Of a stretch of 64,000 nucleotides of DNA, positions 19,973 through 64,000 are shown in pieces; the first letter of the stretch is position 1, and each line of letters starts with the position of its first letter. Source of the DNA: Siphonodentalium dalli (Eukaryota > Mollusca > Scaphopoda > Gadilida > Siphonodentaliidae); NCBI GenBank assembly GCA_032622095.1, contig CP136068.1:164631465-164695464 (forward strand), written 5' to 3'. Position numbers and translations under genes: made by a program. The notes beneath the pieces were generated by a model, which worked only from the letters and a program-made list of their open reading frames with translations, searched no databases and had not been told where the DNA came from.

Positions 19973-20602
19973 ATCTTCGGAGGAGATGTGTTCACAAGCA
20001 CATCGGCCCAAATTGCAAACTTTGAGGGCCCGTAACTCTTGCATTTCTTCTCGGATTTCAAAAATCCTTTCCGGTATGGGTTTGTTATCGTTCGGGACAT
20101 ACATAAACTTAAATAGATAAATGTCAAACAAAATTTAATTTTGCAAAAATTTTGCCCCCCCACCCCAGTGTCAAAATATATGTCCGACCCTGTCCAATTT
20201 TCTTTCTCGGACTAAACTGACAAAGAATAACACGACTGTGAAAACCAAATGCAGTTATCTGGAATGATACGAGACGACAACAGAGTACAATGAAATAGAG
20301 GTTTGCCTATTTATGGGCGGTAACTCTTCAGGGAAAGCGCGGACACAAGTTTTGATGCCCGTGGGCAGTAGGGCATATCGAGGTGTACATACGGTCCAAT
20401 TTTCGATGCTCTGCTCCCTATAATTTCCGAGATAATAAATGACATTTTGTTCATATAAAGGGAGATAACTCCGCGGGGTAAACGCGGACAATATTCGTTG
20501 TATGCCGACCGGTTAGAACTCATTGAACCCAACATACATACAAATTTTCACTTCGATACTCCCCATACTTTCAGATATTAAGGCGTTGCAAAAGTGTTGA
20601 GT

Positions 20603-20624
20603 ATAATAATAATAATAATAATAG
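20603..20624 (+). repeat. (TAA)n microsatellite of monomer A (first copy)
   Basis: About seven ATA/TAA units follow gtgttgagt. The tract recurs every 1448 bp with unchanged length in every monomer of array A. Confidence 0.9.
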
Positions 20625-20805
20625 TGAAAAATATTTTATTTTTTATTTTTAATTTCACACCGTGGGGAAGCGTTGGGTCGAAATCGCGATATCTTCATTT
20701 TCAGTATCCCTTAGATGCCTACATTCCCTAGAGATTTCACGGTCCTACTGCAATTAGTTTCTGAGTATTTCAAATAAACGGAAAACGACCTCAGTACAAA
20801 AACAA

Positions 20806-20836
20806 TATACTTCCTTGGTTACACCATGGAAGTATA
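20806..20836. other. Conserved hairpin of monomer A (first copy)
   Basis: tatacttccttggt pairs with accatggaagtata around a 3-nt loop (13 of 14 pairs), followed by ataatag. It recurs every 1448 bp. Positionally equivalent hairpins exist in monomer B (34971-35001) and monomer C (62397-62426). In C the stem is perfect but uses a different tip, as expected if the structure rather than the tip sequence is maintained. Confidence 0.85.
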
Positions 20837-23800
20837 ATAATAGGGACAATCATGAGCTGAAACAATCGCAGTTTAGGGACGGGATATATGAAGTATGGTG
20901 ATTATATGTTGTCCTTAACATGTGTGTGTTGATCTCAAGTATTTGGAAGTGACCCCACCCCTGCCTCGAAATTGGGTGACGGGAATGTGAAATTGTCAAA
21001 CCCGGCCCAAAATGCGAAGTTTGAGGGCCCGTAACTCAGTTATTTTCCAATGGATTTTAAAATTGTTTTCAGTATTGTGATTAGCTCCTCACATAGATTG
21101 TTTGTTATAAATTTTGTCTGATTCGGAGACGGCTAACATTTTGGTTATTGGAAAGAATACGGGTCCAGATTCAATTTTGATGGCCCAAATCTCGGCCATT
21201 TTTTAACGGATTTACGATCTGTTTTCAGTTTTGTGATCAACGTGTATGGTAGATGTTATATTTCAAGTTTCATATAATTCGGAGACGAAATAAATTTTGG
21301 TACCCCGGACCGCCCCTCCCCTGATCCACATCACTGAACCGACACTGGCAAAATTTGGCACACCGCGTGCTCTCTTCAGCCCGCACGCATTGGCGTATCA
21401 GATGACATCCAAAGTTCGACATCTTCGGAGGAGATGTGTTCACAAGCACATCGGCCCAAATTGCAAACTTTGAGGGCCCGTAACTCTTGCATTTCTTCTC
21501 GGATTTCAAAAATCCTTTCCGGTATGGGTTTGTTATCGTTCGGGACATACATAAACTTAAATAGATAAATGTCAAACAAAATTTAATTTTGCAAAAATTT
21601 TGCCCCCCCACCCCAGTGTCAAAATATATGTCCGACCCTGTCCAATTTTCTTTCTCGGACTAAACTGACAAAGAATAACACGACTGTGAAAACCAAATGC
21701 AGTTATCTGGAATGATACGAGACGACAACAGAGTACAATGAAATAGAGGTTTGCCTATTTATGGGCGGTAACTCTTCAGGGAAAGCGCGGACACAAGTTT
21801 TGATGCCCGTGGGCAGTAGGGCATATCGAGGTGTACATACGGTCCAATTTTCGATGCTCTGCTCCCTATAATTTCCGAGATAATAAATGACATTTTGTTC
21901 ATATAAAGGGAGATAACTCCGCGGGGTAAACGCGGACAATATTCGTTGTATGCCGACCGGTTAGAACTCATTGAACCCAACATACATACAAATTTTCACT
22001 TCGATACTCCCCATACTTTCAGATATTAAGGCGTTGCAAAAGTGTTGAGTATAATAATAATAATAATAATAGTGAAAAATATTTTATTTTTTATTTTTAA
22101 TTTCACACCGTGGGGAAGCGTTGGGTCGAAATCGCGATATCTTCATTTTCAGTATCCCTTAGATGCCTACATTCCCTAGAGATTTCACGGTCCTACTGCA
22201 ATTAGTTTCTGAGTATTTCAAATAAACGGAAAACGACCTCAGTACAAAAACAATATACTTCCTTGGTTACACCATGGAAGTATAATAATAGGGACAATCA
22301 TGAGCTGAAACAATCGCAGTTTAGGGACGGGATATATGAAGTATGGTGATTATATGTTGTCCTTAACATGTGTGTGTTGATCTCAAGTATTTGGAAGTGA
22401 CCCCACCCCTGCCTCGAAATTGGGTGACGGGAATGTGAAATTGTCAAACCCGGCCCAAAATGCGAAGTTTGAGGGCCCGTAACTCAGTTATTTTCCAATG
22501 GATTTTAAAATTGTTTTCAGTATTGTGATTAGCTCCTCACATAGATTGTTTGTTATAAATTTTGTCTGATTCGGAGACGGCTAACATTTTGGTTATTGGA
22601 AAGAATACGGGTCCAGATTCAATTTTGATGGCCCAAATCTCGGCCATTTTTTAACGGATTTACGATCTGTTTTCAGTTTTGTGATCAACGTGTATGGTAG
22701 ATGTTATATTTCAAGTTTCATATAATTCGGAGACGAAATAAATTTTGGTACCCCGGACCGCCCCTCCCCTGATCCACATCACTGAACCGACACTGGCAAA
22801 ATTTGGCACACCGCGTGCTCTCTTCAGCCCGCACGCATTGGCGTATCAGATGACATCCAAAGTTCGACATCTTCGGAGGAGATGTGTTCACAAGCACATC
22901 GGCCCAAATTGCAAACTTTGAGGGCCCGTAACTCTTGCATTTCTTCTCGGATTTCAAAAATCCTTTCCGGTATGGGTTTGTTATCGTTCGGGACATACAT
23001 AAACTTAAATAGATAAATGTCAAACAAAATTTAATTTTGCAAAAATTTTGCCCCCCCACCCCAGTGTCAAAATATATGTCCGACCCTGTCCAATTTTCTT
23101 TCTCGGACTAAACTGACAAAGAATAACACGACTGTGAAAACCAAATGCAGTTATCTGGAATGATACGAGACGACAACAGAGTACAATGAAATAGAGGTTT
23201 GCCTATTTATGGGCGGTAACTCTTCAGGGAAAGCGCGGACACAAGTTTTGATGCCCGTGGGCAGTAGGGCATATCGAGGTGTACATACGGTCCAATTTTC
23301 GATGCTCTGCTCCCTATAATTTCCGAGATAATAAATGACATTTTGTTCATATAAAGGGAGATAACTCCGCGGGGTAAACGCGGACAATATTCGTTGTATG
23401 CCGACCGGTTAGAACTCATTGAACCCAACATACATACAAATTTTCACTTCGATACTCCCCATACTTTCAGATATTAAGGCGTTGCAAAAGTGTTGAGTAT
23501 AATAATAATAATAATAATAGTGAAAAATATTTTATTTTTTATTTTTAATTTCACACCGTGGGGAAGCGTTGGGTCGAAATCGCGATATCTTCATTTTCAG
23601 TATCCCTTAGATGCCTACATTCCCTAGAGATTTCACGGTCCTACTGCAATTAGTTTCTGAGTATTTCAAATAAACGGAAAACGACCTCAGTACAAAAACA
23701 ATATACTTCCTTGGTTACACCATGGAAGTATAATAATAGGGACAATCATGAGCTGAAACAATCGCAGTTTAGGGACGGGATATATGAAGTATGGTGATTA

Positions 23801-26800
23801 TATGTTGTCCTTAACATGTGTGTGTTGATCTCAAGTATTTGGAAGTGACCCCACCCCTGCCTCGAAATTGGGTGACGGGAATGTGAAATTGTCAAACCCG
23901 GCCCAAAATGCGAAGTTTGAGGGCCCGTAACTCAGTTATTTTCCAATGGATTTTAAAATTGTTTTCAGTATTGTGATTAGCTCCTCACATAGATTGTTTG
24001 TTATAAATTTTGTCTGATTCGGAGACGGCTAACATTTTGGTTATTGGAAAGAATACGGGTCCAGATTCAATTTTGATGGCCCAAATCTCGGCCATTTTTT
24101 AACGGATTTACGATCTGTTTTCAGTTTTGTGATCAACGTGTATGGTAGATGTTATATTTCAAGTTTCATATAATTCGGAGACGAAATAAATTTTGGTACC
24201 CCGGACCGCCCCTCCCCTGATCCACATCACTGAACCGACACTGGCAAAATTTGGCACACCGCGTGCTCTCTTCAGCCCGCACGCATTGGCGTATCAGATG
24301 ACATCCAAAGTTCGACATCTTCGGAGGAGATGTGTTCACAAGCACATCGGCCCAAATTGCAAACTTTGAGGGCCCGTAACTCTTGCATTTCTTCTCGGAT
24401 TTCAAAAATCCTTTCCGGTATGGGTTTGTTATCGTTCGGGACATACATAAACTTAAATAGATAAATGTCAAACAAAATTTAATTTTGCAAAAATTTTGCC
24501 CCCCCACCCCAGTGTCAAAATATATGTCCGACCCTGTCCAATTTTCTTTCTCGGACTAAACTGACAAAGAATAACACGACTGTGAAAACCAAATGCAGTT
24601 ATCTGGAATGATACGAGACGACAACAGAGTACAATGAAATAGAGGTTTGCCTATTTATGGGCGGTAACTCTTCAGGGAAAGCGCGGACACAAGTTTTGAT
24701 GCCCGTGGGCAGTAGGGCATATCGAGGTGTACATACGGTCCAATTTTCGATGCTCTGCTCCCTATAATTTCCGAGATAATAAATGACATTTTGTTCATAT
24801 AAAGGGAGATAACTCCGCGGGGTAAACGCGGACAATATTCGTTGTATGCCGACCGGTTAGAACTCATTGAACCCAACATACATACAAATTTTCACTTCGA
24901 TACTCCCCATACTTTCAGATATTAAGGCGTTGCAAAAGTGTTGAGTATAATAATAATAATAATAATAGTGAAAAATATTTTATTTTTTATTTTTAATTTC
25001 ACACCGTGGGGAAGCGTTGGGTCGAAATCGCGATATCTTCATTTTCAGTATCCCTTAGATGCCTACATTCCCTAGAGATTTCACGGTCCTACTGCAATTA
25101 GTTTCTGAGTATTTCAAATAAACGGAAAACGACCTCAGTACAAAAACAATATACTTCCTTGGTTACACCATGGAAGTATAATAATAGGGACAATCATGAG
25201 CTGAAACAATCGCAGTTTAGGGACGGGATATATGAAGTATGGTGATTATATGTTGTCCTTAACATGTGTGTGTTGATCTCAAGTATTTGGAAGTGACCCC
25301 ACCCCTGCCTCGAAATTGGGTGACGGGAATGTGAAATTGTCAAACCCGGCCCAAAATGCGAAGTTTGAGGGCCCGTAACTCAGTTATTTTCCAATGGATT
25401 TTAAAATTGTTTTCAGTATTGTGATTAGCTCCTCACATAGATTGTTTGTTATAAATTTTGTCTGATTCGGAGACGGCTAACATTTTGGTTATTGGAAAGA
25501 ATACGGGTCCAGATTCAATTTTGATGGCCCAAATCTCGGCCATTTTTTAACGGATTTACGATCTGTTTTCAGTTTTGTGATCAACGTGTATGGTAGATGT
25601 TATATTTCAAGTTTCATATAATTCGGAGACGAAATAAATTTTGGTACCCCGGACCGCCCCTCCCCTGATCCACATCACTGAACCGACACTGGCAAAATTT
25701 GGCACACCGCGTGCTCTCTTCAGCCCGCACGCATTGGCGTATCAGATGACATCCAAAGTTCGACATCTTCGGAGGAGATGTGTTCACAAGCACATCGGCC
25801 CAAATTGCAAACTTTGAGGGCCCGTAACTCTTGCATTTCTTCTCGGATTTCAAAAATCCTTTCCGGTATGGGTTTGTTATCGTTCGGGACATACATAAAC
25901 TTAAATAGATAAATGTCAAACAAAATTTAATTTTGCAAAAATTTTGCCCCCCCACCCCAGTGTCAAAATATATGTCCGACCCTGTCCAATTTTCTTTCTC
26001 GGACTAAACTGACAAAGAATAACACGACTGTGAAAACCAAATGCAGTTATCTGGAATGATACGAGACGACAACAGAGTACAATGAAATAGAGGTTTGCCT
26101 ATTTATGGGCGGTAACTCTTCAGGGAAAGCGCGGACACAAGTTTTGATGCCCGTGGGCAGTAGGGCATATCGAGGTGTACATACGGTCCAATTTTCGATG
26201 CTCTGCTCCCTATAATTTCCGAGATAATAAATGACATTTTGTTCATATAAAGGGAGATAACTCCGCGGGGTAAACGCGGACAATATTCGTTGTATGCCGA
26301 CCGGTTAGAACTCATTGAACCCAACATACATACAAATTTTCACTTCGATACTCCCCATACTTTCAGATATTAAGGCGTTGCAAAAGTGTTGAGTATAATA
26401 ATAATAATAATAATAGTGAAAAATATTTTATTTTTTATTTTTAATTTCACACCGTGGGGAAGCGTTGGGTCGAAATCGCGATATCTTCATTTTCAGTATC
26501 CCTTAGATGCCTACATTCCCTAGAGATTTCACGGTCCTACTGCAATTAGTTTCTGAGTATTTCAAATAAACGGAAAACGACCTCAGTACAAAAACAATAT
26601 ACTTCCTTGGTTACACCATGGAAGTATAATAATAGGGACAATCATGAGCTGAAACAATCGCAGTTTAGGGACGGGATATATGAAGTATGGTGATTATATG
26701 TTGTCCTTAACATGTGTGTGTTGATCTCAAGTATTTGGAAGTGACCCCACCCCTGCCTCGAAATTGGGTGACGGGAATGTGAAATTGTCAAACCCGGCCC

Positions 26801-29800
26801 AAAATGCGAAGTTTGAGGGCCCGTAACTCAGTTATTTTCCAATGGATTTTAAAATTGTTTTCAGTATTGTGATTAGCTCCTCACATAGATTGTTTGTTAT
26901 AAATTTTGTCTGATTCGGAGACGGCTAACATTTTGGTTATTGGAAAGAATACGGGTCCAGATTCAATTTTGATGGCCCAAATCTCGGCCATTTTTTAACG
27001 GATTTACGATCTGTTTTCAGTTTTGTGATCAACGTGTATGGTAGATGTTATATTTCAAGTTTCATATAATTCGGAGACGAAATAAATTTTGGTACCCCGG
27101 ACCGCCCCTCCCCTGATCCACATCACTGAACCGACACTGGCAAAATTTGGCACACCGCGTGCTCTCTTCAGCCCGCACGCATTGGCGTATCAGATGACAT
27201 CCAAAGTTCGACATCTTCGGAGGAGATGTGTTCACAAGCACATCGGCCCAAATTGCAAACTTTGAGGGCCCGTAACTCTTGCATTTCTTCTCGGATTTCA
27301 AAAATCCTTTCCGGTATGGGTTTGTTATCGTTCGGGACATACATAAACTTAAATAGATAAATGTCAAACAAAATTTAATTTTGCAAAAATTTTGCCCCCC
27401 CACCCCAGTGTCAAAATATATGTCCGACCCTGTCCAATTTTCTTTCTCGGACTAAACTGACAAAGAATAACACGACTGTGAAAACCAAATGCAGTTATCT
27501 GGAATGATACGAGACGACAACAGAGTACAATGAAATAGAGGTTTGCCTATTTATGGGCGGTAACTCTTCAGGGAAAGCGCGGACACAAGTTTTGATGCCC
27601 GTGGGCAGTAGGGCATATCGAGGTGTACATACGGTCCAATTTTCGATGCTCTGCTCCCTATAATTTCCGAGATAATAAATGACATTTTGTTCATATAAAG
27701 GGAGATAACTCCGCGGGGTAAACGCGGACAATATTCGTTGTATGCCGACCGGTTAGAACTCATTGAACCCAACATACATACAAATTTTCACTTCGATACT
27801 CCCCATACTTTCAGATATTAAGGCGTTGCAAAAGTGTTGAGTATAATAATAATAATAATAATAGTGAAAAATATTTTATTTTTTATTTTTAATTTCACAC
27901 CGTGGGGAAGCGTTGGGTCGAAATCGCGATATCTTCATTTTCAGTATCCCTTAGATGCCTACATTCCCTAGAGATTTCACGGTCCTACTGCAATTAGTTT
28001 CTGAGTATTTCAAATAAACGGAAAACGACCTCAGTACAAAAACAATATACTTCCTTGGTTACACCATGGAAGTATAATAATAGGGACAATCATGAGCTGA
28101 AACAATCGCAGTTTAGGGACGGGATATATGAAGTATGGTGATTATATGTTGTCCTTAACATGTGTGTGTTGATCTCAAGTATTTGGAAGTGACCCCACCC
28201 CTGCCTCGAAATTGGGTGACGGGAATGTGAAATTGTCAAACCCGGCCCAAAATGCGAAGTTTGAGGGCCCGTAACTCAGTTATTTTCCAATGGATTTTAA
28301 AATTGTTTTCAGTATTGTGATTAGCTCCTCACATAGATTGTTTGTTATAAATTTTGTCTGATTCGGAGACGGCTAACATTTTGGTTATTGGAAAGAATAC
28401 GGGTCCAGATTCAATTTTGATGGCCCAAATCTCGGCCATTTTTTAACGGATTTACGATCTGTTTTCAGTTTTGTGATCAACGTGTATGGTAGATGTTATA
28501 TTTCAAGTTTCATATAATTCGGAGACGAAATAAATTTTGGTACCCCGGACCGCCCCTCCCCTGATCCACATCACTGAACCGACACTGGCAAAATTTGGCA
28601 CACCGCGTGCTCTCTTCAGCCCGCACGCATTGGCGTATCAGATGACATCCAAAGTTCGACATCTTCGGAGGAGATGTGTTCACAAGCACATCGGCCCAAA
28701 TTGCAAACTTTGAGGGCCCGTAACTCTTGCATTTCTTCTCGGATTTCAAAAATCCTTTCCGGTATGGGTTTGTTATCGTTCGGGACATACATAAACTTAA
28801 ATAGATAAATGTCAAACAAAATTTAATTTTGCAAAAATTTTGCCCCCCCACCCCAGTGTCAAAATATATGTCCGACCCTGTCCAATTTTCTTTCTCGGAC
28901 TAAACTGACAAAGAATAACACGACTGTGAAAACCAAATGCAGTTATCTGGAATGATACGAGACGACAACAGAGTACAATGAAATAGAGGTTTGCCTATTT
29001 ATGGGCGGTAACTCTTCAGGGAAAGCGCGGACACAAGTTTTGATGCCCGTGGGCAGTAGGGCATATCGAGGTGTACATACGGTCCAATTTTCGATGCTCT
29101 GCTCCCTATAATTTCCGAGATAATAAATGACATTTTGTTCATATAAAGGGAGATAACTCCGCGGGGTAAACGCGGACAATATTCGTTGTATGCCGACCGG
29201 TTAGAACTCATTGAACCCAACATACATACAAATTTTCACTTCGATACTCCCCATACTTTCAGATATTAAGGCGTTGCAAAAGTGTTGAGTATAATAATAA
29301 TAATAATAATAGTGAAAAATATTTTATTTTTTATTTTTAATTTCACACCGTGGGGAAGCGTTGGGTCGAAATCGCGATATCTTCATTTTCAGTATCCCTT
29401 AGATGCCTACATTCCCTAGAGATTTCACGGTCCTACTGCAATTAGTTTCTGAGTATTTCAAATAAACGGAAAACGACCTCAGTACAAAAACAATATACTT
29501 CCTTGGTTACACCATGGAAGTATAATAATAGGGACAATCATGAGCTGAAACAATCGCAGTTTAGGGACGGGATATATGAAGTATGGTGATTATATGTTGT
29601 CCTTAACATGTGTGTGTTGATCTCAAGTATTTGGAAGTGACCCCACCCCTGCCTCGAAATTGGGTGACGGGAATGTGAAATTGTCAAACCCGGCCCAAAA
29701 TGCGAAGTTTGAGGGCCCGTAACTCAGTTATTTTCCAATGGATTTTAAAATTGTTTTCAGTATTGTGATTAGCTCCTCACATAGATTGTTTGTTATAAAT

Positions 29801-30977
29801 TTTGTCTGATTCGGAGACGGCTAACATTTTGGTTATTGGAAAGAATACGGGTCCAGATTCAATTTTGATGGCCCAAATCTCGGCCATTTTTTAACGGATT
29901 TACGATCTGTTTTCAGTTTTGTGATCAACGTGTATGGTAGATGTTATATTTCAAGTTTCATATAATTCGGAGACGAAATAAATTTTGGTACCCCGGACCG
30001 CCCCTCCCCTGATCCACATCACTGAACCGACACTGGCAAAATTTGGCACACCGCGTGCTCTCTTCAGCCCGCACGCATTGGCGTATCAGATGACATCCAA
30101 AGTTCGACATCTTCGGAGGAGATGTGTTCACAAGCACATCGGCCCAAATTGCAAACTTTGAGGGCCCGTAACTCTTGCATTTCTTCTCGGATTTCAAAAA
30201 TCCTTTCCGGTATGGGTTTGTTATCGTTCGGGACATACATAAACTTAAATAGATAAATGTCAAACAAAATTTAATTTTGCAAAAATTTTGCCCCCCCACC
30301 CCAGTGTCAAAATATATGTCCGACCCTGTCCAATTTTCTTTCTCGGACTAAACTGACAAAGAATAACACGACTGTGAAAACCAAATGCAGTTATCTGGAA
30401 TGATACGAGACGACAACAGAGTACAATGAAATAGAGGTTTGCCTATTTATGGGCGGTAACTCTTCAGGGAAAGCGCGGACACAAGTTTTGATGCCCGTGG
30501 GCAGTAGGGCATATCGAGGTGTACATACGGTCCAATTTTCGATGCTCTGCTCCCTATAATTTCCGAGATAATAAATGACATTTTGTTCATATAAAGGGAG
30601 ATAACTCCGCGGGGTAAACGCGGACAATATTCGTTGTATGCCGACCGGTTAGAACTCATTGAACCCAACATACATACAAATTTTCACTTCGATACTCCCC
30701 ATACTTTCAGATATTAAGGCGTTGCAAAAGTGTTGAGTATAATAATAATAATAATAATAGTGAAAAATATTTTATTTTTTATTTTTAATTTCACACCGTG
30801 GGGAAGCGTTGGGTCGAAATCGCGATATCTTCATTTTCAGTATCCCTTAGATGCCTACATTCCCTAGAGATTTCACGGTCCTACTGCAATTAGTTTCTGA
30901 GTATTTCAAATAAACGGAAAACGACCTCAGTACAAAAACAATATACTTCCTTGGTTACACCATGGAAGTATAATAAT

Positions 30978-31184
30978 GAAAAATAATCGAAAAAGGGCCA
31001 TAACTCTGTCAAAATATATTGGACCAACATCCGGATAGCATTATTTTTAGTAGACCTTAGATGCCTACATTCGCTAGAGATTTCGCGGTCCTCCTCCCAT
31101 TAGTTTCTGAGTATTTCCAATTAAACAGAAAACGGCCGCAGTAGAAAAACAATATACTTCCTTGGTTACACCATGGAAGTATAA
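30978..31184 (+). repeat. Extra terminal module after array A, with a second hairpin
   Basis: After the last complete hairpin of array A, a diverged copy of the microsatellite-to-hairpin segment follows (gaaaaataatcg ... gaagtata). It is closer in wording to monomer B (gggccataactc, cattcgctagagatttcgcg) than to monomer A. The array therefore ends with two consecutive hairpin-terminated segments. Confidence 0.75.
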
Positions 31185-31250
31185 CTAGAGGTCAGATTCC
31201 ATGGAATCAGATATACTTCCATGGTATTCCATCCCATCCCATCCCGTCCC
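31181..31250. repeat. Array A tail junction
   Basis: ataactagagg (31181-31191) marks the end of satellite sequence. It is followed by the 14-bp palindrome gattccatggaatc (31195-31208), then gatatacttccatggtattc and repeated catccc. The same junction and order are found after array B at 59529-59585. Confidence 0.7.
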
Positions 31251-31507
31251 GACCTGACCTTGGTCTTCAAAATGGTCAATCGAAGGTCAAATCGGGTAAA
31301 ACATGCGGATTTCCACGAAATTTGATACCTAGGGGTACTTTTGTCCGGGGAGTCTTTTGGGCGGGTCAAGTCGTGACCCCGACCTGACATTGACATTCGA
31401 AATGGTAAGTTCAAGGTCAAATCGAGTAAAACTATCGGATTTCGACGAAATTTTATACCTAGGAAAACTTTTGTCCGGGGAGTGTTTTGGACAGGTCAAA
31501 TCGTGAC
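31249..31507. repeat. ~129-bp tandem duplication
   Basis: Two diverged copies (31249-31376 and 31378-31507) share cgacctgac, aaggtcaaatcg, gatacctagg/tatacctagg and acttttgtccggggagt. Minus-strand open frames of 79-84 codons span it and reflect the duplication only. Confidence 0.75.
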
Positions 31508-31524
31508 AATAGGTTACTTTTACA

Positions 31525-32270
31525 GTAGAGCGGACATACCTATATAGTATATCGGTGAGCATATTCATGCATTTGCCTTGCTTCTTGCTAAGTCCGTTTG
31601 AATTTGCGTCATGAAGAGAGGGTTTGAATTTGAGTAATATATATCACCCGTCACAACGTTATACGCTACCAGGGTTAAACCGTTCAATATAAATTATTAA
31701 AAAGTGTACTAATCTTGCGTATATATACTACTTATCACATCCACTCATCGAAAAGTTTTTATCTCAATATATGATTTTCGGAGTAATTTTGCCCATTTGA
31801 TCTTCGGTGGAATTTTCCAAATCTGAACCCACCCGACACAAACACTCCCTTGAGCAGGTTGCGTTTATATTAGAGAGGTCAAATTTTAGAGTCATACCTA
31901 CAGTATACCGGCTTATGTACCACCGCATTAAACTCGCTCCTACATCGGCCCGTTTGGATTTGGGGCTAAAAATCGGCTAGTGATAGACTACAGAAGTATA
32001 CATATTTATGATATATAGCGTTGTCACGAGTAAACCGTTCCATCTGAAAATTAGAAAATTGCGCTCTAGATGCGCGTGAACACTAGCTATCAGATGTACT
32101 CGTCAAAAAAAATTATCTCGATGTTTGAATTTGAAGTATAGCGGTCAAGATTTGGGGGAGGGGCGTGAATAGAATATCCAAATGTACCTGCTACATTACC
32201 TTGCTCTTTAATTAGCCCTTTTGGATTTGGTGGGAAGAATAGGTGCATTTTCCTGTTCCCCGTATAGCGG
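31525..32270. repeat. ~360-bp degenerate tandem repeat (array A tail)
   Basis: Two and a partial copies. Shared words include 'agcggtcaa', 'cgctcct.cat', 'agcccgtttgaatttg', 'cacgagtaaaccgttc', 'atccactcatcgaaaa' and 'tttatctc.at.t'. The same family follows array B at about 60600-61480. No coding content. Confidence 0.7.
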
Positions 32271-32384
32271 AAAGGGGTATATATATATAGTCACGCATTT
32301 CAATCAGTTTGGATATACAGTTTAAATATACACAGTTATATGCCTATATATTTAATACTAATATATTTTCTTATAAATTAACAG

Positions 32385-32475
32385 CGCAGTGCGTAGCCCA
32401 GTGGTGAGAGCGTCAAACGTTCAGTTTGTGTTTTATTGCGACGTGAGTTCGAATCCCGTCAAATTATCTTTTTTT
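32385..32475 (+). ncRNA. tRNA-like pol III unit, copy 1
   Basis: An A-box match, tagcccagtgg, at 32394-32404 continues tgagagc like a tRNA D-arm. A B-box match, gagttcgaatccc, lies at 32445-32457, and T7 at 32469-32475 can act as a pol III terminator. Between them, caaa-cgttcag-tttg can form an anticodon-like stem with a TTC triplet, but position 33 would be G rather than the invariant U. The acceptor stem does not close convincingly. It is therefore better read as a tRNA-derived SINE head or tRNA pseudogene than as a functional tRNA. Internal pol III promoters could still drive a short RNA. Confidence 0.55.
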
Positions 32476-32655
32476 ATTTTTTATTTTTAACATGTTTTGG
32501 TGTATTTTAATCATCAAATACGAATAATACCAAACTAAAGATAATGTAAAGATGCTTTTTATATTCGATTTCAATCAATTTGAATATAAAGTTTAAATAT
32601 ACACAGTTATATGCCTATATATTTAATACTAATATATTTTCTTATAAATTAACAG

Positions 32656-32744
32656 CGCAGTGCGTAGCCCAGAGGTGAGAGCGTCAAACCTTCAGTTTGT
32701 GTTTTATTGCGACGTGAGTTCGAATCCCGTCAAATTATCTTTTT
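32656..32744 (+). ncRNA. tRNA-like pol III unit, copy 2
   Basis: The A box tagcccagagg (32665-32675) has one change from copy 1. The B box gagttcgaatccc (32716-32728) is identical, and T5 lies at 32740-32744. The anticodon-like loop reads ccttcag instead of cgttcag. Retention of both boxes while a loop base changes is compatible with selection on the promoter but is too little to prove it. Confidence 0.5.
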
Positions 32745-32822
32745 GTATTTTTTATTTTTAACATGTTTTGGTGTATTTTAATCATCAAATACGAATAATA
32801 CCAAACTAAAGATAATGTAAAA

Positions 32823-34746: not shown

Positions 34747-34747
<1 letters not shown>

Positions 34748-34790: not shown

Positions 34791-34794
<4 letters not shown>

Positions 34795-48906: not shown

Positions 48907-48954
<48 letters not shown>

Positions 48955-50676: not shown

Positions 50677-50724
<48 letters not shown>

Positions 50725-52446: not shown

Positions 52447-52494
<48 letters not shown>

Positions 52495-54216
52495 TGAAAA
52501 ATAATCGCAAAAGGGCCATAACTCCACCAAGAAACATTGGGCGGAAATCCGGATACCATTATATCTAGTAAACCTTCGATTCCTACATTCGCTAGAGATT
52601 TCGCGTTCCTACTGCAATCAGTTTCTGAGTATTTCGAAATAAACGGAAAACGACCTCAGTAGAAAAACAATATACTTCCTTGGTTACACCATGGAAGTAT
52701 AATAATAGGCCAAATCATGAGCTCAATAAATCGCAGTTAAGGGACGGAAAATATGAAGTAGGATGATTATATCTTTCCCTTAACATGTGTGAGTTGATCT
52801 CAAGTGTTTGGAAGTGACCCCACCCCTGCCTCGAAATTGGGTGACGGGATTGGGAAATAGTCAAACCCGGCCCAAAATGCGAATTTTGAGAGCCCGTAAC
52901 TCCGTTATTTTCCAATGGATTTTAAAATTGTTTTGAGTATTGTGATCAGCTAGTTACATTGATTATTTTTTATAAATTTTGTCTCATTCAGAGACGAATA
53001 ACATTTTGTTTATTAGAAAGAATACGGGCCCACATTCAAAGTTTGAGGGCCCAAATCTCCGCCATTTTTTAACGGATTTACGATCTGTTTTCAGTTTTAT
53101 GATCAACGTATAAGGTAGATGTTATATACCAAGTTTCATATGATTCGGAGACGAACTAAATTTTGGTACCTCGGACCACCCCTCCCCTGACCCACAACAC
53201 TGAACCGACACTTGCAAAATTTGGCACATCGCGTGCTCTCTTCAGACCGCGCGCGCTGCGATATCAGATGACATCCTAAGTTTGAGATCTTCGGAGGAGA
53301 TGAGGTCACAGGCACATGGGCCCAAATTTGCATTGTTTGAAGGACCGCAACTCCGTCATTTTTCAATGGATTTTCGAAATTGTTTCAGTTTCTAGATCGG
53401 TTGGCGGTGTAGATGTTACACTCCAAGTTTCATCTGATTCGGAGAAGAATAAAAAATTGGTACCCCGGACCGCCCCTCCCCTGATCCACAACACTTAACC
53501 GACACTGGCAAAATTTGGCACATCGCGTGCTCTCTTCGGACCGCACGCACTGGAATATCAGATGACATCCTAAGTTCGATATCTTCGGAGGAGATGTGAG
53601 CACAAGCACATGGGACCAAATTGCAAACTTTGAGGGCCCGTAACTCTTGCATTTCTTCTCGGATTACAAAAATCCTTTCCGGTATGGGTTTGTTTTCGTT
53701 CATGGAATCTACATACTTAAATAGATGAATGTCAATAAAAAAAAAAAATTGCGAAAATTTTGCCCCCACCCCAGTGTAAAAATATATGGCCAACCCTGTC
53801 AAATTTTCTTCTTCGGACTAAGCTGACAACGGTCAACACGACTACAAAAACCAAATATAGTTATCTGGAATGATACGGGAGGACAACAGAGTACAATAAA
53901 ATAGAGGTTTGCCAACTATGGGCGGTAACTCTTCAGGGAAAGCGCGGACACAAGTTTTTATGCCCGTGGGCAGTAGTGCATATCGAGATGTGCATACGGT
54001 CTAATTTTCGATGCTCTGCTTCTTATAATTTCCGAGATAATAAAATGACATTTTTTCAAATAAAGGGAGATAACTCCTCGGTGAAAGCGCGGACAAAATC
54101 GTTATGGGCCATAGGCATAGAACTCATGTACCCCAACCTACTTACCAAGTTTTAGTGTCCTACTTCTTGTACTTTTCGAGTAATAGTGATTACAAAAGTG
54201 TCAAGTATAATAATAA

Positions 54217-54264
<48 letters not shown>

Positions 54265-55986
54265 TGAAAAATAATCGCAAAAGGGCCATAACTCCACCAA
54301 GAAACATTGGGCGGAAATCCGGATACCATTATATCTAGTAAACCTTCGATTCCTACATTCGCTAGAGATTTCGCGTTCCTACTGCAATCAGTTTCTGAGT
54401 ATTTCGAAATAAACGGAAAACGACCTCAGTAGAAAAACAATATACTTCCTTGGTTACACCATGGAAGTATAATAATAGGCCAAATCATGAGCTCAATAAA
54501 TCGCAGTTAAGGGACGGAAAATATGAAGTAGGATGATTATATCTTTCCCTTAACATGTGTGAGTTGATCTCAAGTGTTTGGAAGTGACCCCACCCCTGCC
54601 TCGAAATTGGGTGACGGGATTGGGAAATAGTCAAACCCGGCCCAAAATGCGAATTTTGAGAGCCCGTAACTCCGTTATTTTCCAATGGATTTTAAAATTG
54701 TTTTGAGTATTGTGATCAGCTAGTTACATTGATTATTTTTTATAAATTTTGTCTCATTCAGAGACGAATAACATTTTGTTTATTAGAAAGAATACGGGCC
54801 CACATTCAAAGTTTGAGGGCCCAAATCTCCGCCATTTTTTAACGGATTTACGATCTGTTTTCAGTTTTATGATCAACGTATAAGGTAGATGTTATATACC
54901 AAGTTTCATATGATTCGGAGACGAACTAAATTTTGGTACCTCGGACCACCCCTCCCCTGACCCACAACACTGAACCGACACTTGCAAAATTTGGCACATC
55001 GCGTGCTCTCTTCAGACCGCGCGCGCTGCGATATCAGATGACATCCTAAGTTTGAGATCTTCGGAGGAGATGAGGTCACAGGCACATGGGCCCAAATTTG
55101 CATTGTTTGAAGGACCGCAACTCCGTCATTTTTCAATGGATTTTCGAAATTGTTTCAGTTTCTAGATCGGTTGGCGGTGTAGATGTTACACTCCAAGTTT
55201 CATCTGATTCGGAGAAGAATAAAAAATTGGTACCCCGGACCGCCCCTCCCCTGATCCACAACACTTAACCGACACTGGCAAAATTTGGCACATCGCGTGC
55301 TCTCTTCGGACCGCACGCACTGGAATATCAGATGACATCCTAAGTTCGATATCTTCGGAGGAGATGTGAGCACAAGCACATGGGACCAAATTGCAAACTT
55401 TGAGGGCCCGTAACTCTTGCATTTCTTCTCGGATTACAAAAATCCTTTCCGGTATGGGTTTGTTTTCGTTCATGGAATCTACATACTTAAATAGATGAAT
55501 GTCAATAAAAAAAAAAAATTGCGAAAATTTTGCCCCCACCCCAGTGTAAAAATATATGGCCAACCCTGTCAAATTTTCTTCTTCGGACTAAGCTGACAAC
55601 GGTCAACACGACTACAAAAACCAAATATAGTTATCTGGAATGATACGGGAGGACAACAGAGTACAATAAAATAGAGGTTTGCCAACTATGGGCGGTAACT
55701 CTTCAGGGAAAGCGCGGACACAAGTTTTTATGCCCGTGGGCAGTAGTGCATATCGAGATGTGCATACGGTCTAATTTTCGATGCTCTGCTTCTTATAATT
55801 TCCGAGATAATAAAATGACATTTTTTCAAATAAAGGGAGATAACTCCTCGGTGAAAGCGCGGACAAAATCGTTATGGGCCATAGGCATAGAACTCATGTA
55901 CCCCAACCTACTTACCAAGTTTTAGTGTCCTACTTCTTGTACTTTTCGAGTAATAGTGATTACAAAAGTGTCAAGTATAATAATAA

Positions 55987-56034
<48 letters not shown>

Positions 56035-57756
56035 TGAAAAATAATCGCAAAAGGGCCATAACTCCACCAAGAAACATTGGGCGGAAATCCGGATACCATT
56101 ATATCTAGTAAACCTTCGATTCCTACATTCGCTAGAGATTTCGCGTTCCTACTGCAATCAGTTTCTGAGTATTTCGAAATAAACGGAAAACGACCTCAGT
56201 AGAAAAACAATATACTTCCTTGGTTACACCATGGAAGTATAATAATAGGCCAAATCATGAGCTCAATAAATCGCAGTTAAGGGACGGAAAATATGAAGTA
56301 GGATGATTATATCTTTCCCTTAACATGTGTGAGTTGATCTCAAGTGTTTGGAAGTGACCCCACCCCTGCCTCGAAATTGGGTGACGGGATTGGGAAATAG
56401 TCAAACCCGGCCCAAAATGCGAATTTTGAGAGCCCGTAACTCCGTTATTTTCCAATGGATTTTAAAATTGTTTTGAGTATTGTGATCAGCTAGTTACATT
56501 GATTATTTTTTATAAATTTTGTCTCATTCAGAGACGAATAACATTTTGTTTATTAGAAAGAATACGGGCCCACATTCAAAGTTTGAGGGCCCAAATCTCC
56601 GCCATTTTTTAACGGATTTACGATCTGTTTTCAGTTTTATGATCAACGTATAAGGTAGATGTTATATACCAAGTTTCATATGATTCGGAGACGAACTAAA
56701 TTTTGGTACCTCGGACCACCCCTCCCCTGACCCACAACACTGAACCGACACTTGCAAAATTTGGCACATCGCGTGCTCTCTTCAGACCGCGCGCGCTGCG
56801 ATATCAGATGACATCCTAAGTTTGAGATCTTCGGAGGAGATGAGGTCACAGGCACATGGGCCCAAATTTGCATTGTTTGAAGGACCGCAACTCCGTCATT
56901 TTTCAATGGATTTTCGAAATTGTTTCAGTTTCTAGATCGGTTGGCGGTGTAGATGTTACACTCCAAGTTTCATCTGATTCGGAGAAGAATAAAAAATTGG
57001 TACCCCGGACCGCCCCTCCCCTGATCCACAACACTTAACCGACACTGGCAAAATTTGGCACATCGCGTGCTCTCTTCGGACCGCACGCACTGGAATATCA
57101 GATGACATCCTAAGTTCGATATCTTCGGAGGAGATGTGAGCACAAGCACATGGGACCAAATTGCAAACTTTGAGGGCCCGTAACTCTTGCATTTCTTCTC
57201 GGATTACAAAAATCCTTTCCGGTATGGGTTTGTTTTCGTTCATGGAATCTACATACTTAAATAGATGAATGTCAATAAAAAAAAAAAATTGCGAAAATTT
57301 TGCCCCCACCCCAGTGTAAAAATATATGGCCAACCCTGTCAAATTTTCTTCTTCGGACTAAGCTGACAACGGTCAACACGACTACAAAAACCAAATATAG
57401 TTATCTGGAATGATACGGGAGGACAACAGAGTACAATAAAATAGAGGTTTGCCAACTATGGGCGGTAACTCTTCAGGGAAAGCGCGGACACAAGTTTTTA
57501 TGCCCGTGGGCAGTAGTGCATATCGAGATGTGCATACGGTCTAATTTTCGATGCTCTGCTTCTTATAATTTCCGAGATAATAAAATGACATTTTTTCAAA
57601 TAAAGGGAGATAACTCCTCGGTGAAAGCGCGGACAAAATCGTTATGGGCCATAGGCATAGAACTCATGTACCCCAACCTACTTACCAAGTTTTAGTGTCC
57701 TACTTCTTGTACTTTTCGAGTAATAGTGATTACAAAAGTGTCAAGTATAATAATAA

Positions 57757-57804
<48 letters not shown>

Positions 57805-59528
57805 TGAAAAATAATCGCAAAAGGGCCATAACTCCACCAAGAAACATTGGGCGGAAATCCGGATACCATTATATCTAGTAAACCTTCGATTCCTACATTC
57901 GCTAGAGATTTCGCGTTCCTACTGCAATCAGTTTCTGAGTATTTCGAAATAAACGGAAAACGACCTCAGTAGAAAAACAATATACTTCCTTGGTTACACC
58001 ATGGAAGTATAATAATAGGCCAAATCATGAGCTCAATAAATCGCAGTTAAGGGACGGAAAATATGAAGTAGGATGATTATATCTTTCCCTTAACATGTGT
58101 GAGTTGATCTCAAGTGTTTGGAAGTGACCCCACCCCTGCCTCGAAATTGGGTGACGGGATTGGGAAATAGTCAAACCCGGCCCAAAATGCGAATTTTGAG
58201 AGCCCGTAACTCCGTTATTTTCCAATGGATTTTAAAATTGTTTTGAGTATTGTGATCAGCTAGTTACATTGATTATTTTTTATAAATTTTGTCTCATTCA
58301 GAGACGAATAACATTTTGTTTATTAGAAAGAATACGGGCCCACATTCAAAGTTTGAGGGCCCAAATCTCCGCCATTTTTTAACGGATTTACGATCTGTTT
58401 TCAGTTTTATGATCAACGTATAAGGTAGATGTTATATACCAAGTTTCATATGATTCGGAGACGAACTAAATTTTGGTACCTCGGACCACCCCTCCCCTGA
58501 CCCACAACACTGAACCGACACTTGCAAAATTTGGCACATCGCGTGCTCTCTTCAGACCGCGCGCGCTGCGATATCAGATGACATCCTAAGTTTGAGATCT
58601 TCGGAGGAGATGAGGTCACAGGCACATGGGCCCAAATTTGCATTGTTTGAAGGACCGCAACTCCGTCATTTTTCAATGGATTTTCGAAATTGTTTCAGTT
58701 TCTAGATCGGTTGGCGGTGTAGATGTTACACTCCAAGTTTCATCTGATTCGGAGAAGAATAAAAAATTGGTACCCCGGACCGCCCCTCCCCTGATCCACA
58801 ACACTTAACCGACACTGGCAAAATTTGGCACATCGCGTGCTCTCTTCGGACCGCACGCACTGGAATATCAGATGACATCCTAAGTTCGATATCTTCGGAG
58901 GAGATGTGAGCACAAGCACATGGGACCAAATTGCAAACTTTGAGGGCCCGTAACTCTTGCATTTCTTCTCGGATTACAAAAATCCTTTCCGGTATGGGTT
59001 TGTTTTCGTTCATGGAATCTACATACTTAAATAGATGAATGTCAATAAAAAAAAAAAATTGCGAAAATTTTGCCCCCACCCCAGTGTAAAAATATATGGC
59101 CAACCCTGTCAAATTTTCTTCTTCGGACTAAGCTGACAACGGTCAACACGACTACAAAAACCAAATATAGTTATCTGGAATGATACGGGAGGACAACAGA
59201 GTACAATAAAATAGAGGTTTGCCAACTATGGGCGGTAACTCTTCAGGGAAAGCGCGGACACAAGTTTTTATGCCCGTGGGCAGTAGTGCATATCGAGATG
59301 TGCATACGGTCTAATTTTCGATGCTCTGCTTCTTATAATTTCCGAGATAATAAAATGACATTTTTTCAAATAAAGGGAGATAACTCCTCGGTGAAAGCGC
59401 GGACAAAATCGTTATGGGCCATAGGCATAGAACTCATGTACCCCAACCTACTTACCAAGTTTTAGTGTCCTACTTCTTGTACTTTTCGAGTAATAGTGAT
59501 TACAAAAGTGTCAAGTATAATAATAAGA

Positions 59529-59585
59529 ATAACTAGAGGGTTAAAATTCTGGCCTGCAGAATTTTGATACTTCCATATAAATTCC
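59529..59585. repeat. Array B tail junction
   Basis: ataactagagg at 59529-59539 is followed by a hairpin (aaaattctg/cagaatttt, about 59543-59566), then gatacttccatataaattcc and catccc. It is collinear with the junction after array A at 31181-31250. Confidence 0.7.
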
Positions 59586-59990
59586 CCATCCCCGACCACC
59601 ATCCATAATTTAATCATCTACCCACCACTATCCAATCCTTACACATAAACCACCCCATAACCCTAATATTGGCAGCCAATCCATAATCATAACCATTTCC
59701 ACAGCCCTATCCACAGCACTTAACTCTAACCCAATAAAATATCCTTACCAAATACATTGCCCTCCTGCAAACCATATTCATAGCCGTACCTTGGACCATT
59801 ACCAAAACTCTTTCGATGAGCCTAGTCATACATACAAGCGTACCCACAACCAAATCCTTTGCATAACTGACACCGTCACAATTTTAACATTAACAATATC
59901 CACAATTCTAACCCAATTTATAAACCATATCCTGACCATAACGTTAACATTAATCCTAACCCTGATATACACATATCTATAAGCCTATAC
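59570..59990. repeat. G-poor, CCTAA/CCATA-rich cryptic repeat
   Basis: Over about 420 bp the + strand is almost free of G and full of accac, ccata, aaccctaat and taaccctgat words. Scattered matches to CCCTAA resemble a strongly degenerate telomere-like or simple-repeat tract. No regular period can be fixed by eye. A 63-codon open frame at 59791-59982 is a composition artefact. Confidence 0.5.
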
Positions 59991-60599
59991 TTAATGTATT
60001 ATATAGTTATCAGGGTATAAAATATTAAATATGAGTAAAGAATTCTGTCCGGAAATGAGTCTATTGATTAATATTGATTTCATTTCGAATATCTTCTGGT
60101 CTAATAATGTGTGGTTGTTTAGCTAACGAACAATAGTGGTTACTGTTACCAGCGACCAGGTATGTTCTAAAAATAAATCAATAACTTGTCCCAATTAAAC
60201 ATCTCATTTCATAATAAAATATTCGAAAAAATTCAACATTAGCTGATAGAAGTCTTACTGGACATGGATCTTCAATTCATATTTATTATTTTGGACCCAC
60301 AAACTATTTCAAACTTGTTATTTAAAGAGATAGTCATATTGTTAACCCTTCACATTAATTTTCCTATGTGTATACAGTCATCCGGGAGTATTTTTCTGCA
60401 TGATAAGTGAATACATGTAATATCTATCGGTCACTTAATCCTGATTAACTAAGTGCGTATTCATTTGAAAAGTTAAAAAAATCATCGAATTTGCACGTGG
60501 ATAGTACCGACCACATCCAATTTGCGTTATCTCGATTTCTTCATTTATTTCTTTGCAAGATTTACTTGAAGTTGCCAAAAGCCTCGATCAACCGATGCG
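59991..60599. other. No recognisable feature
   Basis: AT-rich spacer. No open frame, inverted repeat or RNA gene was recognised. Confidence 0.5.
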
Positions 60600-61480
60600 C
60601 GTTCTCTGTTAGACGGATTGCTTTTATACCACAGTCAAACTTCCAGGATGTATATATGGTATACTGAGACACATGCTCACGCATTTCACTCACTCCTTCA
60701 TTAGTCTGCTTGAATTTCGACTTTTGCCATATATCGATGTAGGCGTATTCCTATGCATGTAGTACGCATTACGCTATATATCGTCGCCACGAGTGGATCC
60801 TTTGTTCTGAAACTTAAGCAATCGCACCAGTGTTGGGCGTTGATATCCCCTATCACATCCACTCGTCAGAAAAATTTTATCTCCATATTTTATTGTTTTC
60901 AAGAATTTTTGAACTTTCGGTTTTTGTTGGAATTTGCCAATATGTACCCACCTGAACACGAGCTTTCCGTTGGTCGGTTTGCTTTGTAAGTAGAGCGGTC
61001 AAACGTTGGGATGTTACCAAAAATATATCAACGTACCCGCTCCTGCATTACATCGCTCCTTCATTAACACGGTCGGATTTGGCGAGGTAAATAGCTTAGT
61101 GATACAGCACTTAAATATACTTGTTAACATTATAAAGCCTCGCCACGAGTAAACCTTGTCCCTTAGCGCAAATTAAGCAGACATCGATAAGTTGCGTTTG
61201 GGTACTATCTATCATATCCACTATTCAAATTTTGTTTATCTCGATGTTTGATTTTTAGACAATTTTTCCCCCTTTGATTTTCGTTGGAATTTGCAAAAAG
61301 TCTGAACCGACCGGAAGCTCACTCGCTGTTTGACAGTTTGCTATTATAGCAGAGCTATCAAACTTTGGGAGCCTACCTACGCGATACCGCACTACCTGCT
61401 CCTGCATTAACCTTGCTCACCAATTAGCCCGTTTGAATTTGGAGCCAAAAATAGGTAATTTTCTTGTACATGCCGTAGAT
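60600..61480. repeat. ~360-bp degenerate tandem repeat (array B tail)
   Basis: Two and a partial copies: 'tccactcgtcagaaaaattt' near 60859 recurs as 'tccactattcaaattttg' near 61218. Shared words with 31525-32270 include agagcggtcaaa, gctcctgcatta, agcccgtttgaatttgg and gccacgagtaaacc. It follows array B as its relative follows array A. Confidence 0.7.
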
Positions 61481-61580
61481 CGGTAACGATTGGGAATTAA
61501 AAACATGCCAGCGAAAAAATTCAGTCCGCACCACTCTCCCCATTCGGAATATGCAACAAAAATATTATACCGCTGGACTT

Positions 61581-61581
<1 letters not shown>

Positions 61582-61613
<32 letters not shown>
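61582..61613. repeat. Run of 32 T
   Basis: An uninterrupted T32 follows ctggacttg. It could be the poly(A) tail of a retroposed sequence lying on the minus strand (its body would then be to the right, 61614 onwards), or a simple homopolymer expansion. No target duplication was identified. Confidence 0.8.
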
Positions 61614-61616
<3 letters not shown>

Positions 61617-61647
61617 AAATCTGCCGTTTACATCCGCCACCGGTCAG

Positions 61648-61735
61648 CCTGGTCTCACCACCCTGGGCCTGGTTTCACCACCCCGACCTGGTATCATTAC
61701 CCAGCATGGTTTCGTCACCTCCCTGGTTATGCTTC
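61648..61735 (+). repeat. ~18-19-bp degenerate minisatellite
   Basis: Four to five units of cctggtttcaccaccccg type (cctggtctcaccaccctg, cctggtatcattacccag, catggtttcgtcacctcc). No gene function is suggested. Confidence 0.65.
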
Positions 61736-61772
61736 ATTCTCTCCCATGCTCCTTCATTAGCCAAATTATTTA

Positions 61773-64000
61773 ATTTCCGATGGTCTGTAACTTGGACATT
61801 TCTCAACCGATTTACAAAATTCTTTCAGGAGGATCATTAGTACACCCTATAGATACACGACAGTAAAAATAGTTGAAATCATCGAAAAAAAAAATTGCGA
61901 AAATTTTGCCCCCACCCAAAACGCCAAAATATAAGTCCGTCCCTGTTCAAAACTTGTTTTCCTTAGCAAGTTGATAACGGGTAACTACATAAAAGCTCTC
62001 AAATATGGATACCGTGCATGTTATAGGCGGTTACATGATATGAAATAAATCGAATTTTGCGAATCATGGGCGACAACTCTGTAGAAAAAGCGCGGACATA
62101 AATTATAATGTATGGATTCAATAGGGAATCCTGAGTTCTACATATGGTCCAAATTTTTAGTCTCTGCTGCTCATACTTTTCGAGATACAGCAACCCCATA
62201 TTTTCACAAACAGGGAGATAACTCTGTAAACCAAACGCGGACAACATCCTATATACTCTTATTAGTTAGAAATAGTATAGGTCTATATGCATACGAAATT
62301 TCAGCTCCCTATCTCTTGTACTTCCGGAGATATAAGAGTTGAAAAATTGCTTAGAATAATAATAATAGAGGAGAAAAATAATAAATTGAATAACAATATA
62401 CTTCCATATTAAAATATGGAAGTATAATAAGGGATTCGCACGGAATTGATTGGTATGTCGATAGTATGGTTTATTGACATTTCTGTGTTCAGTTGGAACG
62501 TTCTGGTGTGACCCCCACCCTTGCATCGGAATTAGGTGATGCGGGTAAAAAAGTCGCCATATCTCGGCCAATCTTCGAGATATCGAGCTAATTTTTGCGT
62601 CATTGTGTTCGCATTTGATGCCCCTTTAATATTTAGTAGGGTTCTAGTAAGATATTGTGGCGATATTCTACTATATAGACCTATATTAATGCTGTTCAGT
62701 ACATACATTTCGATTATATCTGGCTTCCATCGACATAATAAGGCAAGTCGGTAATCGTTTAAAAGTATTATAAATTCCCCACCGAATGACACTAAACAAT
62801 TGACGATTGGTTGAAGGAATTTGAATTCATAGTGCATCTTCTGTAAACTTGAAAAAAATGAAGGGGCCACAATTTCTACATTTTTCAACCGATTCACAAA
62901 ATTCACTCATAATATCACTCGGTACATCTTATAGATACTTCACAACAATTTTGGTTCAAATCGGAGACCAAAAAAATATGACAATTTTTGCCCCCTCCCT
63001 AATATGGACCAATGTTTTTGGATCTTCGTCAAAATTGCACCATTTCGTCTTCTTTCTATGGATAACACGCTCACATAAACCAAATCCAGTTCGCGTGCGT
63101 CGTCTAGGAGGAGTTTTGTCCACAAGCACTTTCTCCTCAATCGATGTATGAATACAATTTTCGATGGTCTGTAACTTGGACATTTCTCAACCGATTTACA
63201 AAATTCTTTCAGGAGGATCATTAGTACACCCTATAGATACACGACAGTAAAAATAGTTGAAATCATCGAAAAAAAAAATTGCGAAAATTTTGCCCCCACC
63301 CAAAACGCCAAAATATAAGTCCGTCCCTGTTCAAAACTTGTTTTCCTTAGCAAGTTGATAACGGGTAACTACATAAAAGCTCTCAAATATGGATACCGTG
63401 CATGTTATAGGCGGTTACATGATATGAAATAAATCGAATTTTGCGAATCATGGGCGACAACTCTGTAGAAAAAGCGCGGACATAAATTATAATGTATGGA
63501 TTCAATAGGGAATCCTGAGTTCTACATATGGTCCAAATTTTTAGTCTCTGCTGCTCATACTTTTCGAGATACAGCAACCCCATATTTTCACAAACAGGGA
63601 GATAACTCTGTAAACCAAACGCGGACAACATCCTATATACTCTTATTAGTTAGAAATAGTATAGGTCTATATGCATACGAAATTTCAGCTCCCTATCTCT
63701 TGTACTTCCGGAGATATAAGAGTTGAAAAATTGCTTAGAATAATAATAATAGAGGAGAAAAATAATAAATTGAATAACAATATACTTCCATATTAAAATA
63801 TGGAAGTATAATAAGGGATTCGCACGGAATTGATTGGTATGTCGATAGTATGGTTTATTGACATTTCTGTGTTCAGTTGGAACGTTCTGGTGTGACCCCC
63901 ACCCTTGCATCGGAATTAGGTGATGCGGGTAAAAAAGTCGCCATATCTCGGCCAATCTTCGAGATATCGAGCTAATTTTTGCGTCATTGTGTTCGCATTT
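61773..64000 (+). repeat. Satellite array C, 1384-bp monomer, at least 1.6 copies, cut by window end
   Basis: The sequence at 61778 onward repeats from 63162 with a 1384-bp period to the last base of the window, without visible differences. The order matches A and B: 'gcgaaaattttgcccccacc', 'gggcgacaactctgtagaaa' with gcgcggac, 'gggagataactctg' with gcggac, (AAT)4, a perfect hairpin at 62397-62426, and 'gtgacccccacccttgca'. The substitution level relative to A/B is high, so C is the most distant family. The open frames (72-124 codons) recur per monomer and have no recognisable domain. Confidence 0.9.
62397..62426. other. Perfect hairpin of monomer C (first copy)
   Basis: tatacttccatat pairs perfectly with atatggaagtata around taaa, followed by ataaggg. 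The second copy is at 63781-63810. Confidence 0.9.

Follow-up and report, generated by a model that had tools for sequence, protein, structure and literature searches.

Xiong et al. reportedly described, in 2016, tandem truncated Helitrons of plant centromeres. Among the closest known counterparts of the locus examined here are the non-autonomous Cg_HINE elements of the Pacific oyster, reported with Pearl-type elements (PMC7492417). As far as the accessible text of that report goes, they have subTIR flanks, a 3'-side palindrome, a microsatellite and an internal array of fixed orientation, and related elements carry different arrays, all of which recurs in our material. Their monomers are mostly 140-180 bp and their arrays mostly of five monomers or fewer, whereas here the unit is a higher-order repeat of 1.4-1.8 kb with a 5' hairpin and one element spans 58 kb, including an insert. 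Plant Helitron arrays, according to the available part of a review, pair several 5' ends with just one 3' end, and a rolling-circle model that starts from loss of the 3' terminator is described for them (PMC12628747). The hairpin in each complete unit and the single CTAG end of elements B and C (see below) resemble that arrangement; the plant arrays, however, consist of partly decayed truncated copies, as opposed to the Helitron2-type ends, dispersed young copies and locus-private clonal arrays found here.

Terminal features are shared with two further groups. FoHeli, a Helitron2-type element of Fusarium oxysporum, has a similar 12-bp asymmetric inverted repeat, FoHeli1/2 have hairpins at both termini, and self-insertions and a tandem case are noted; these elements are autonomous, have other terminal letters and the target TNAT|T, and appear without kilobase arrays in the accessible sections of the report (PMC5148889). 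The DINE-1/HINE elements share subTIRs, a 3' palindrome and TT flanks, and the Phytophthora proto-Helentron has 5' TT and a 3' CTAG flanked by A and T, which is compatible with the position of CTAG here; an autonomous partner is known there, and kilobase higher-order arrays go without mention in the available portion of that source (PMC4067079). Oyster satellitomes, in the text accessible, include monomers longer than 2 kb, with ranges up to 3287 and 8637 bp, and such monomers of CgiSat04 and CgiSat07 are mostly standalone, whereas arrays B and C here are bounded by element ends (PMC8268682, PMC11136912). In a literature search of mostly openly accessible papers, some available in part, we recognised no HINE with a kilobase higher-order tandem unit carrying a 5' end. 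We rate the element plan as already known (HINE) and the kilobase higher-order unit with its 5' end as apparently new.

Array units and their relatedness

The locus lies in a 64,000-nucleotide stretch of contig C8 of the scaphopod Siphonodentalium dalli, referred to as the window; coordinates beyond 64000 continue its numbering along the contig. The three arrays named A, B and C in the original prediction are present where it had placed them, with zero mismatch at their periods:

19973..30977, minus strand: array A, 1448 bp x 7.60, zero mismatch at the period; a hairpin ends each unit
34151..59532, minus strand: array B, 1770 bp x 14.34, zero mismatch at the period; it resumes beyond element C
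61778..64000 (window part), minus strand: array C, 1384 bp, zero mismatch at the period
34737..34805, strand not assigned: TAA microsatellite within the B unit, into which C and other copies inserted
34972..35000, minus strand: 5' hairpin ATACTTCC...GGAAGTAT of the first B unit, recurring every 1770 bp

Read past the window, array C comprises 9.47 units in total, with its last hairpin at 74881, and array B then picks up again and extends to 89175. A block search bore out the predicted common strand and block order: gtgacccc, poly-C, gcggac, gcggac, TAA tract and hairpin follow one another in a single orientation in A, B and C, with a second poly-C match in the C unit. The families had also been described as related yet distinct, and the MAFFT identities agree, at 85.7% for A and B (1444 columns), 58.9% for A and C (1241 columns) and 59.2% for B and C (1242 columns); the whole range of 58.9-85.7% lies above the 38.2-45.8% obtained when B was aligned with 10 shuffled C units. 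Judged from these alignments, the A, B and C units are paralogues with one block order.

Each unit contains a decayed sub-period, visible at offsets of 145, 156/157, 293/294/302 and 449/451 (in B also 587 and 744), with 11-266 matching windows at these offsets, whereas 20 shuffles of each unit gave no more than 3. Since the sub-period of about 145-157 bp recurs in its multiples, the unit of 1.4-1.8 kb is, on the evidence of its internal matches, an old, decayed higher-order repeat of a short monomer of that length, similar in size to the central repeats known from other HINE-like elements. When arrays A, B and C are cut from hairpin to hairpin, every piece has the exact array period, one deleted B unit excepted, so that the 5' hairpin is present in each complete unit. 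The exception lies to the right of C (76902-80325; L015, L016), where a 116-bp deletion has removed part of the hairpin in an array that is otherwise invariant.

Element ends, nesting and dispersal

Beyond the arrays, the window contains the following parts of three elements:

31185..64000, on to about 89391, minus strand: element B, with a CTAG left end and a right end; its array is split by C
31185..31224, minus strand: 3' end of B, made of CTAG, 10 nt, the palindrome GATTCCATGGAATC (31195-31208) and the subTIR ATACTTCCATGG (31213-31224)
31225..34150, minus strand: unique (non-array) region of B, with a 149-aa open frame inside
59533..64000, on to 74883, minus strand: element C, 15,351 bp, within array B, with an exact empty site
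59533..59578, minus strand: 3' end of C, made of CTAG, the palindrome AAAATTCTG..CAGAATTTT and the subTIR ATACTTCCATAT (59567-59578)
59579..61777, minus strand: unique (non-array) region of C
19402..19972, minus strand: non-array stretch of element A adjoining array A, 91.4% identical by BLAST to 33379-33961 of B
30972..31182, minus strand: short 211-bp end unit closing array A, of a subtype about 98% identical to units in C1

Element B and element C each combine a single 3' end, composed of subTIR, palindrome and CTAG, with many tandem 5' hairpins. We rejected a plus-strand reading, in which hairpin and CTAG together would close the array, because ten extra loci show CTAG starting the next element: homology begins at AA|CTAGAGGTCAGATTCCATGGAATC (AA|CTAGAGG) in all ten, preceded by unrelated DNA in three and by array units in seven. 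AA precedes each of the 15 B-type left ends examined, that is, CTAG is followed by TT on the element strand. At the right ends, the hairpin is followed by AA in 16 of the 16 junctions listed, which on the element strand places TT before ATACTTCC. The 5' end is thus (TT)ATACTTCC and the 3' end CTAG; a canonical Helitron (Helitron1) was discarded, as its 5' TC is absent despite the 3' CTAG.

In each family, the left subTIR matches that family's own right end as its reverse complement, with CATGG in B and CATAT in C. It is 12 bp long in both families and lies 28 nt (B) or 34 nt (C) from the 3' end, below the 38-60 bp given for mite HINEs in the available text of one report (PMC4067079) and within the approximately 20-40 bp given for FoHeli in that of another (PMC5148889). 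The palindromes lie 10 nt from the 3' terminus in both. The 5' hairpins fold better than shuffled sequences (z of -6.0 for C, -4.4 for A and -3.4 for B); no such advantage over shuffles is seen for the 3' palindromes (z about -0.9), and in B another pairing folds best. A search of window positions 1-19972 for the 3' end of A (CTAG plus subTIR) found none.

The coding content of these regions is small. The 149-aa frame, the largest in the unique region of B, has no Pfam match; the only other frames of at least 120 aa in the arrays and regions up to 62531 are the 128-aa frames of the B units, and array C has a 124-aa open frame at 62532-62906. Minicircle genomes and coding repeats were dismissed on these grounds, the open frames being short and the longest of them lacking a Pfam match. 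Genes for tRNAs or other known RNAs were likewise set aside (no ARAGORN gene, no Rfam match), and the hairpin core has no exact copy in IMG/VR. We conclude that B and C are non-coding, minus-strand elements of the Helitron2/Helentron type (HINE-like).

Several other features of the window were recorded. Within the unique region of B, positions 32297-32821 hold a tRNA-like, SINE-like stretch in two tandem copies (271 bp, 97%), and alignments of several genome copies break exactly at this duplicate. Arrays of different 16-bp units, with up to 7.2 copies, occur at 2004-2049, 2661-2699, 5758-5873 and 6531-6592. A 132-bp direct repeat is identical at 16783-16914 and 17948-18079, 1165 bp apart. Short frames at 7166-7489 (plus strand, E 0.00016) and 11967-12203 (minus strand, E 3.6e-08) match the BED zinc finger and may be what is left of hAT-type transposons or of ZBED genes.

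Element C is inserted in the TAA microsatellite of array B. Joining 59532 to 74884 restores an intact B unit exactly over 400 bp, and among the 12 joins tried this one alone matches, the other 11 failing. No classic target-site duplication is seen at this empty site, where at most 2 bp (AA/TT) are ambiguous. The AA at both junctions may belong to the element or may be a duplication of 2 bp, so that the exact ends are ambiguous by 2 bp. The four C-type left ends examined all sit at position 602 of a B-type unit. Clustering is also apparent among the first 100 of the B-type 3' ends, all on C1: 17 of the 99 gaps are shorter than 15 kb, versus 0.7 expected, and all 17 close pairs share a strand. 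Insertion into the TAA tract borne by the unit explains this clustering, since such a tract as target would predict that elements gather in one orientation. It is worth noting that C1:5362581-5588986 holds thirteen B-type 3' ends within about 226 kb, on one strand, a larger nest of like kind.

The relation between A and B is read from short end units. Array B ends at 89175 and is followed by a 214-bp B-type short unit (89176-89389) and then, at about 89390-89609, by a second short unit, about 220 bp long and of a different subtype; unrelated DNA follows 89609. As short end units thus stand on both sides of B, B (31185 to about 89391) is most simply read as having inserted near the 5' end of A, where a short end unit of A would lie on either side of it. 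These units of 211-220 bp run from TAA tract to hairpin and also occur at a C4 locus (L009-L011). They could have formed when an element nested in a terminal unit and transposition then started from the outer 5' end, or alternatively by a deletion between TAA-like stretches.

The genome searched comprises 9 contigs and 2.23 Gb. A B-unit query returned full copies on C4 (3, at 100%) and C1 (4, at 99%), with 2 of 2,318 candidates scored, and the unique stretch 33380-34150 gave at least 40 matches, all at 99-100% (40 scored of 2,064 candidates), the scored places being spread over seven contigs (C1, C2, C3, C4, C5, C8 and C9). Genome-wide, the exact 24-bp B-type 3' end is present 1,208 times (640 + 568), against 0 + 0 for the reversed control. 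A 771-bp core is full-length in 29 of the 30 loci cut out; besides the window's own core, two are equal to it, 15 carry one and the same set of 9 differences and 11 carry 2-10 differences. These near-identities indicate that the B-type element is young and dispersed. At C5:27409719-27415237, a copy of 5,519 bp (AA excluded) contains about 1.5 units and its right-end hairpin is followed by unrelated DNA, which marks it as a complete isolated copy of the element.

The expectation of a mobile, structured unit is therefore borne out by sharp-ended copies elsewhere. Solo copies with sharp ends and target duplications had been expected to reveal the ancestral unit; the sharp ends were found, including those of the complete C5 copy, but classic target duplications were not. 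The idea of three or more independent amplifications of the unit at a single place must be abandoned, as C arrived by nested insertion and B appears to have done so, and the families are present at many other places as well.

A search for an autonomous partner with PF14214 gave at least 151 matches (150 scored of 457 candidates). Open frames surrounding the higher-scoring matches are up to 1,697 aa long, and among the matches listed are eleven Rep frames of 1,835-2,864 aa with scores of 90.8-110.8 bits. Long Rep frames are located, for example, at C1:169483708, C1:214418025, C2:5304353 and C4:255311255. A long Rep frame at C8:164614114, about 17 kb to the left of the window, has an OTU domain in a 500-aa piece (E 2.1e-08), a domain that the accessible text of one source reports for Helentrons (PMC4067079); three short pieces around this frame contain no end shared with the B or C elements. 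The listed part of C1 has 22 Rep places. Two of its three long frames are 26 and 28 kb away from a B-type end in the proper orientation, and the other 20 places are at least 232 kb from one. Across the pieces read and the listed part of C1, no Rep frame has an end shared with B or C.

Unit homogeneity and the origin of the arrays

Full units show zero differences among the 7 of A, the 19 of B on both sides of C and the 9 of C, as well as among 4 units at L059 and 5 at L060. Two C1 arrays of 4 units each show 0-1 substitution plus changes in TAA length, the 3 units of L062 show 0-1 substitution (2 distinct units of 3), and C1 units of 1776, 1779 and 1785 bp and with single substitutions occur. 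One comparison on C4 pooled units of different arrays, which accounts for its mismatch counts of up to 275 and 22; between C4 neighbours of the same length there are 0-1 differences. Unit identity is mostly 99.9-100% within arrays and 66-99.9% between them. Units from three unlinked sites, L059, L060 and L061, differ by 2 substitutions per pair, with a 6-bp gap in addition at L061.

Private variants are shared along an array. Thirteen of 23 aligned copies carry unit-1 substitutions unique within the set, and the private changes were compared with a second unit in four of the 13 (L026, L035, L029 and L033). The next unit shares the private substitutions in six of six clean cases. At L026, both testable sites recur in unit 2, in a stretch identical at 828 of 828 positions, a third site lying beyond the truncated second unit; at L035, all three recur (1497/1497 identical); at L029, which has two private sites in all, the one testable site recurs (600/600 identical). 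The further locus, L033, is mosaic: its three private sites are in both units (3/3), yet the neighbouring units have 78 mismatches, which speaks against universal clonality. The neighbours with 78 mismatches, at L033 and L064 (C4:255.18 Mb), are nonetheless identical over their last 270 compared bases; such a mosaic array perhaps arose by gene conversion. L047 has a single private unit-1 change, and L025 has 9 private changes in the left region, none in unit 1 and four identical full units. Two loci that seemed rearranged or misaligned were left out of the clonality tests (L042, with 140 private left-region differences, and L043, with 29 in unit 1). We conclude from these comparisons that most arrays examined are clonal per locus, though not always, as at L033.

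Based on the above data, we hold the identity of the elements and their nesting, taken together, to be highly probable. It is likely that the arrays are internal tandem repeats of related, nested, non-autonomous Helitron2/Helentron (HINE-like) transposons on the minus strand. On this reading the elements enter TAA tracts and, as the units themselves carry one, pile into one another in one orientation. In the mechanism that we propose, a circle lacking the 3' terminator would be replicated by rolling circle into an array, any of the tandem 5' hairpins could act as the 5' end, and the proteins would be supplied in trans. The array would be made anew from one unit at each jump. Here we infer the circle, the timing of amplification and the protein donor, as well as the nesting of B in A, whereas that of C in B is shown. 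We favour rolling-circle rebuilding as the cause of the homogeneity, the rolling-circle step being slightly better than an even proposition. Tentatively, and with a little less than even confidence, we suggest that each transposition rolls out a new array from a single unit instead of copying the old one, so that each insertion would be born as a clonal megasatellite.

The main rival keeps the same transposons and is a serious, if lesser, possibility: the arrays would grow and stay uniform after insertion, through unequal crossing-over or gene conversion and not through rolling-circle replication. Array length indeed varies greatly between near-identical copies, from 22.4 units in the window's B to about 3.5 on C4, the mosaic array of L033 and the 116-bp deletion unit to the right of C resemble products of exchange or slippage, and the pattern of L025, with private changes in the left region and homogeneous units, fits continuing homogenisation. 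However, even very young copies are completely homogeneous, and the B units are identical on both sides of the 15-kb insert C; exchange would therefore need to be very fast. A lesser rival, that the perfect identity is partly a product of assembly and polishing, with units flattened to one sequence and copy numbers unreliable, could draw on the zero mismatch over 19 full B units and on their equally long TAA tracts. We consider it unlikely, as unit variants are kept elsewhere in the assembly (the lengths and substitutions on C1, L062, L033), the deletion unit is kept within B itself, and unit identity has no bearing on the ends or the empty site. Ordinary, for example pericentromeric, satellites of common ancestry amplified in place without transposition would account for long homogeneous units with a nucleosome-sized sub-period, but the 40 scored places on seven contigs and the fixed ends speak against them, and the exact empty site and the isolated copy contradict them, which leaves this reading barely credible.

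Competing models exist for how HINE-type elements gain and keep tandem repeats and how transposons seed satellites, as set out in the accessible parts of the literature. The family is young, with 15 of 29 cores of one haplotype, and it offers clean boundaries, an exact empty site and 1,208 exact 3' ends. Given the clean boundaries, the empty site and the shared private variants, replication at the time of the jump could be separated from later exchange with long reads from a few individuals. If a new array is indeed rolled out at each transposition, each unit would hold both a working 5' end and a target, the arrays would be start sites, landing pads and products together, and transposons would turn into higher-order satellite DNA by a route that feeds itself.
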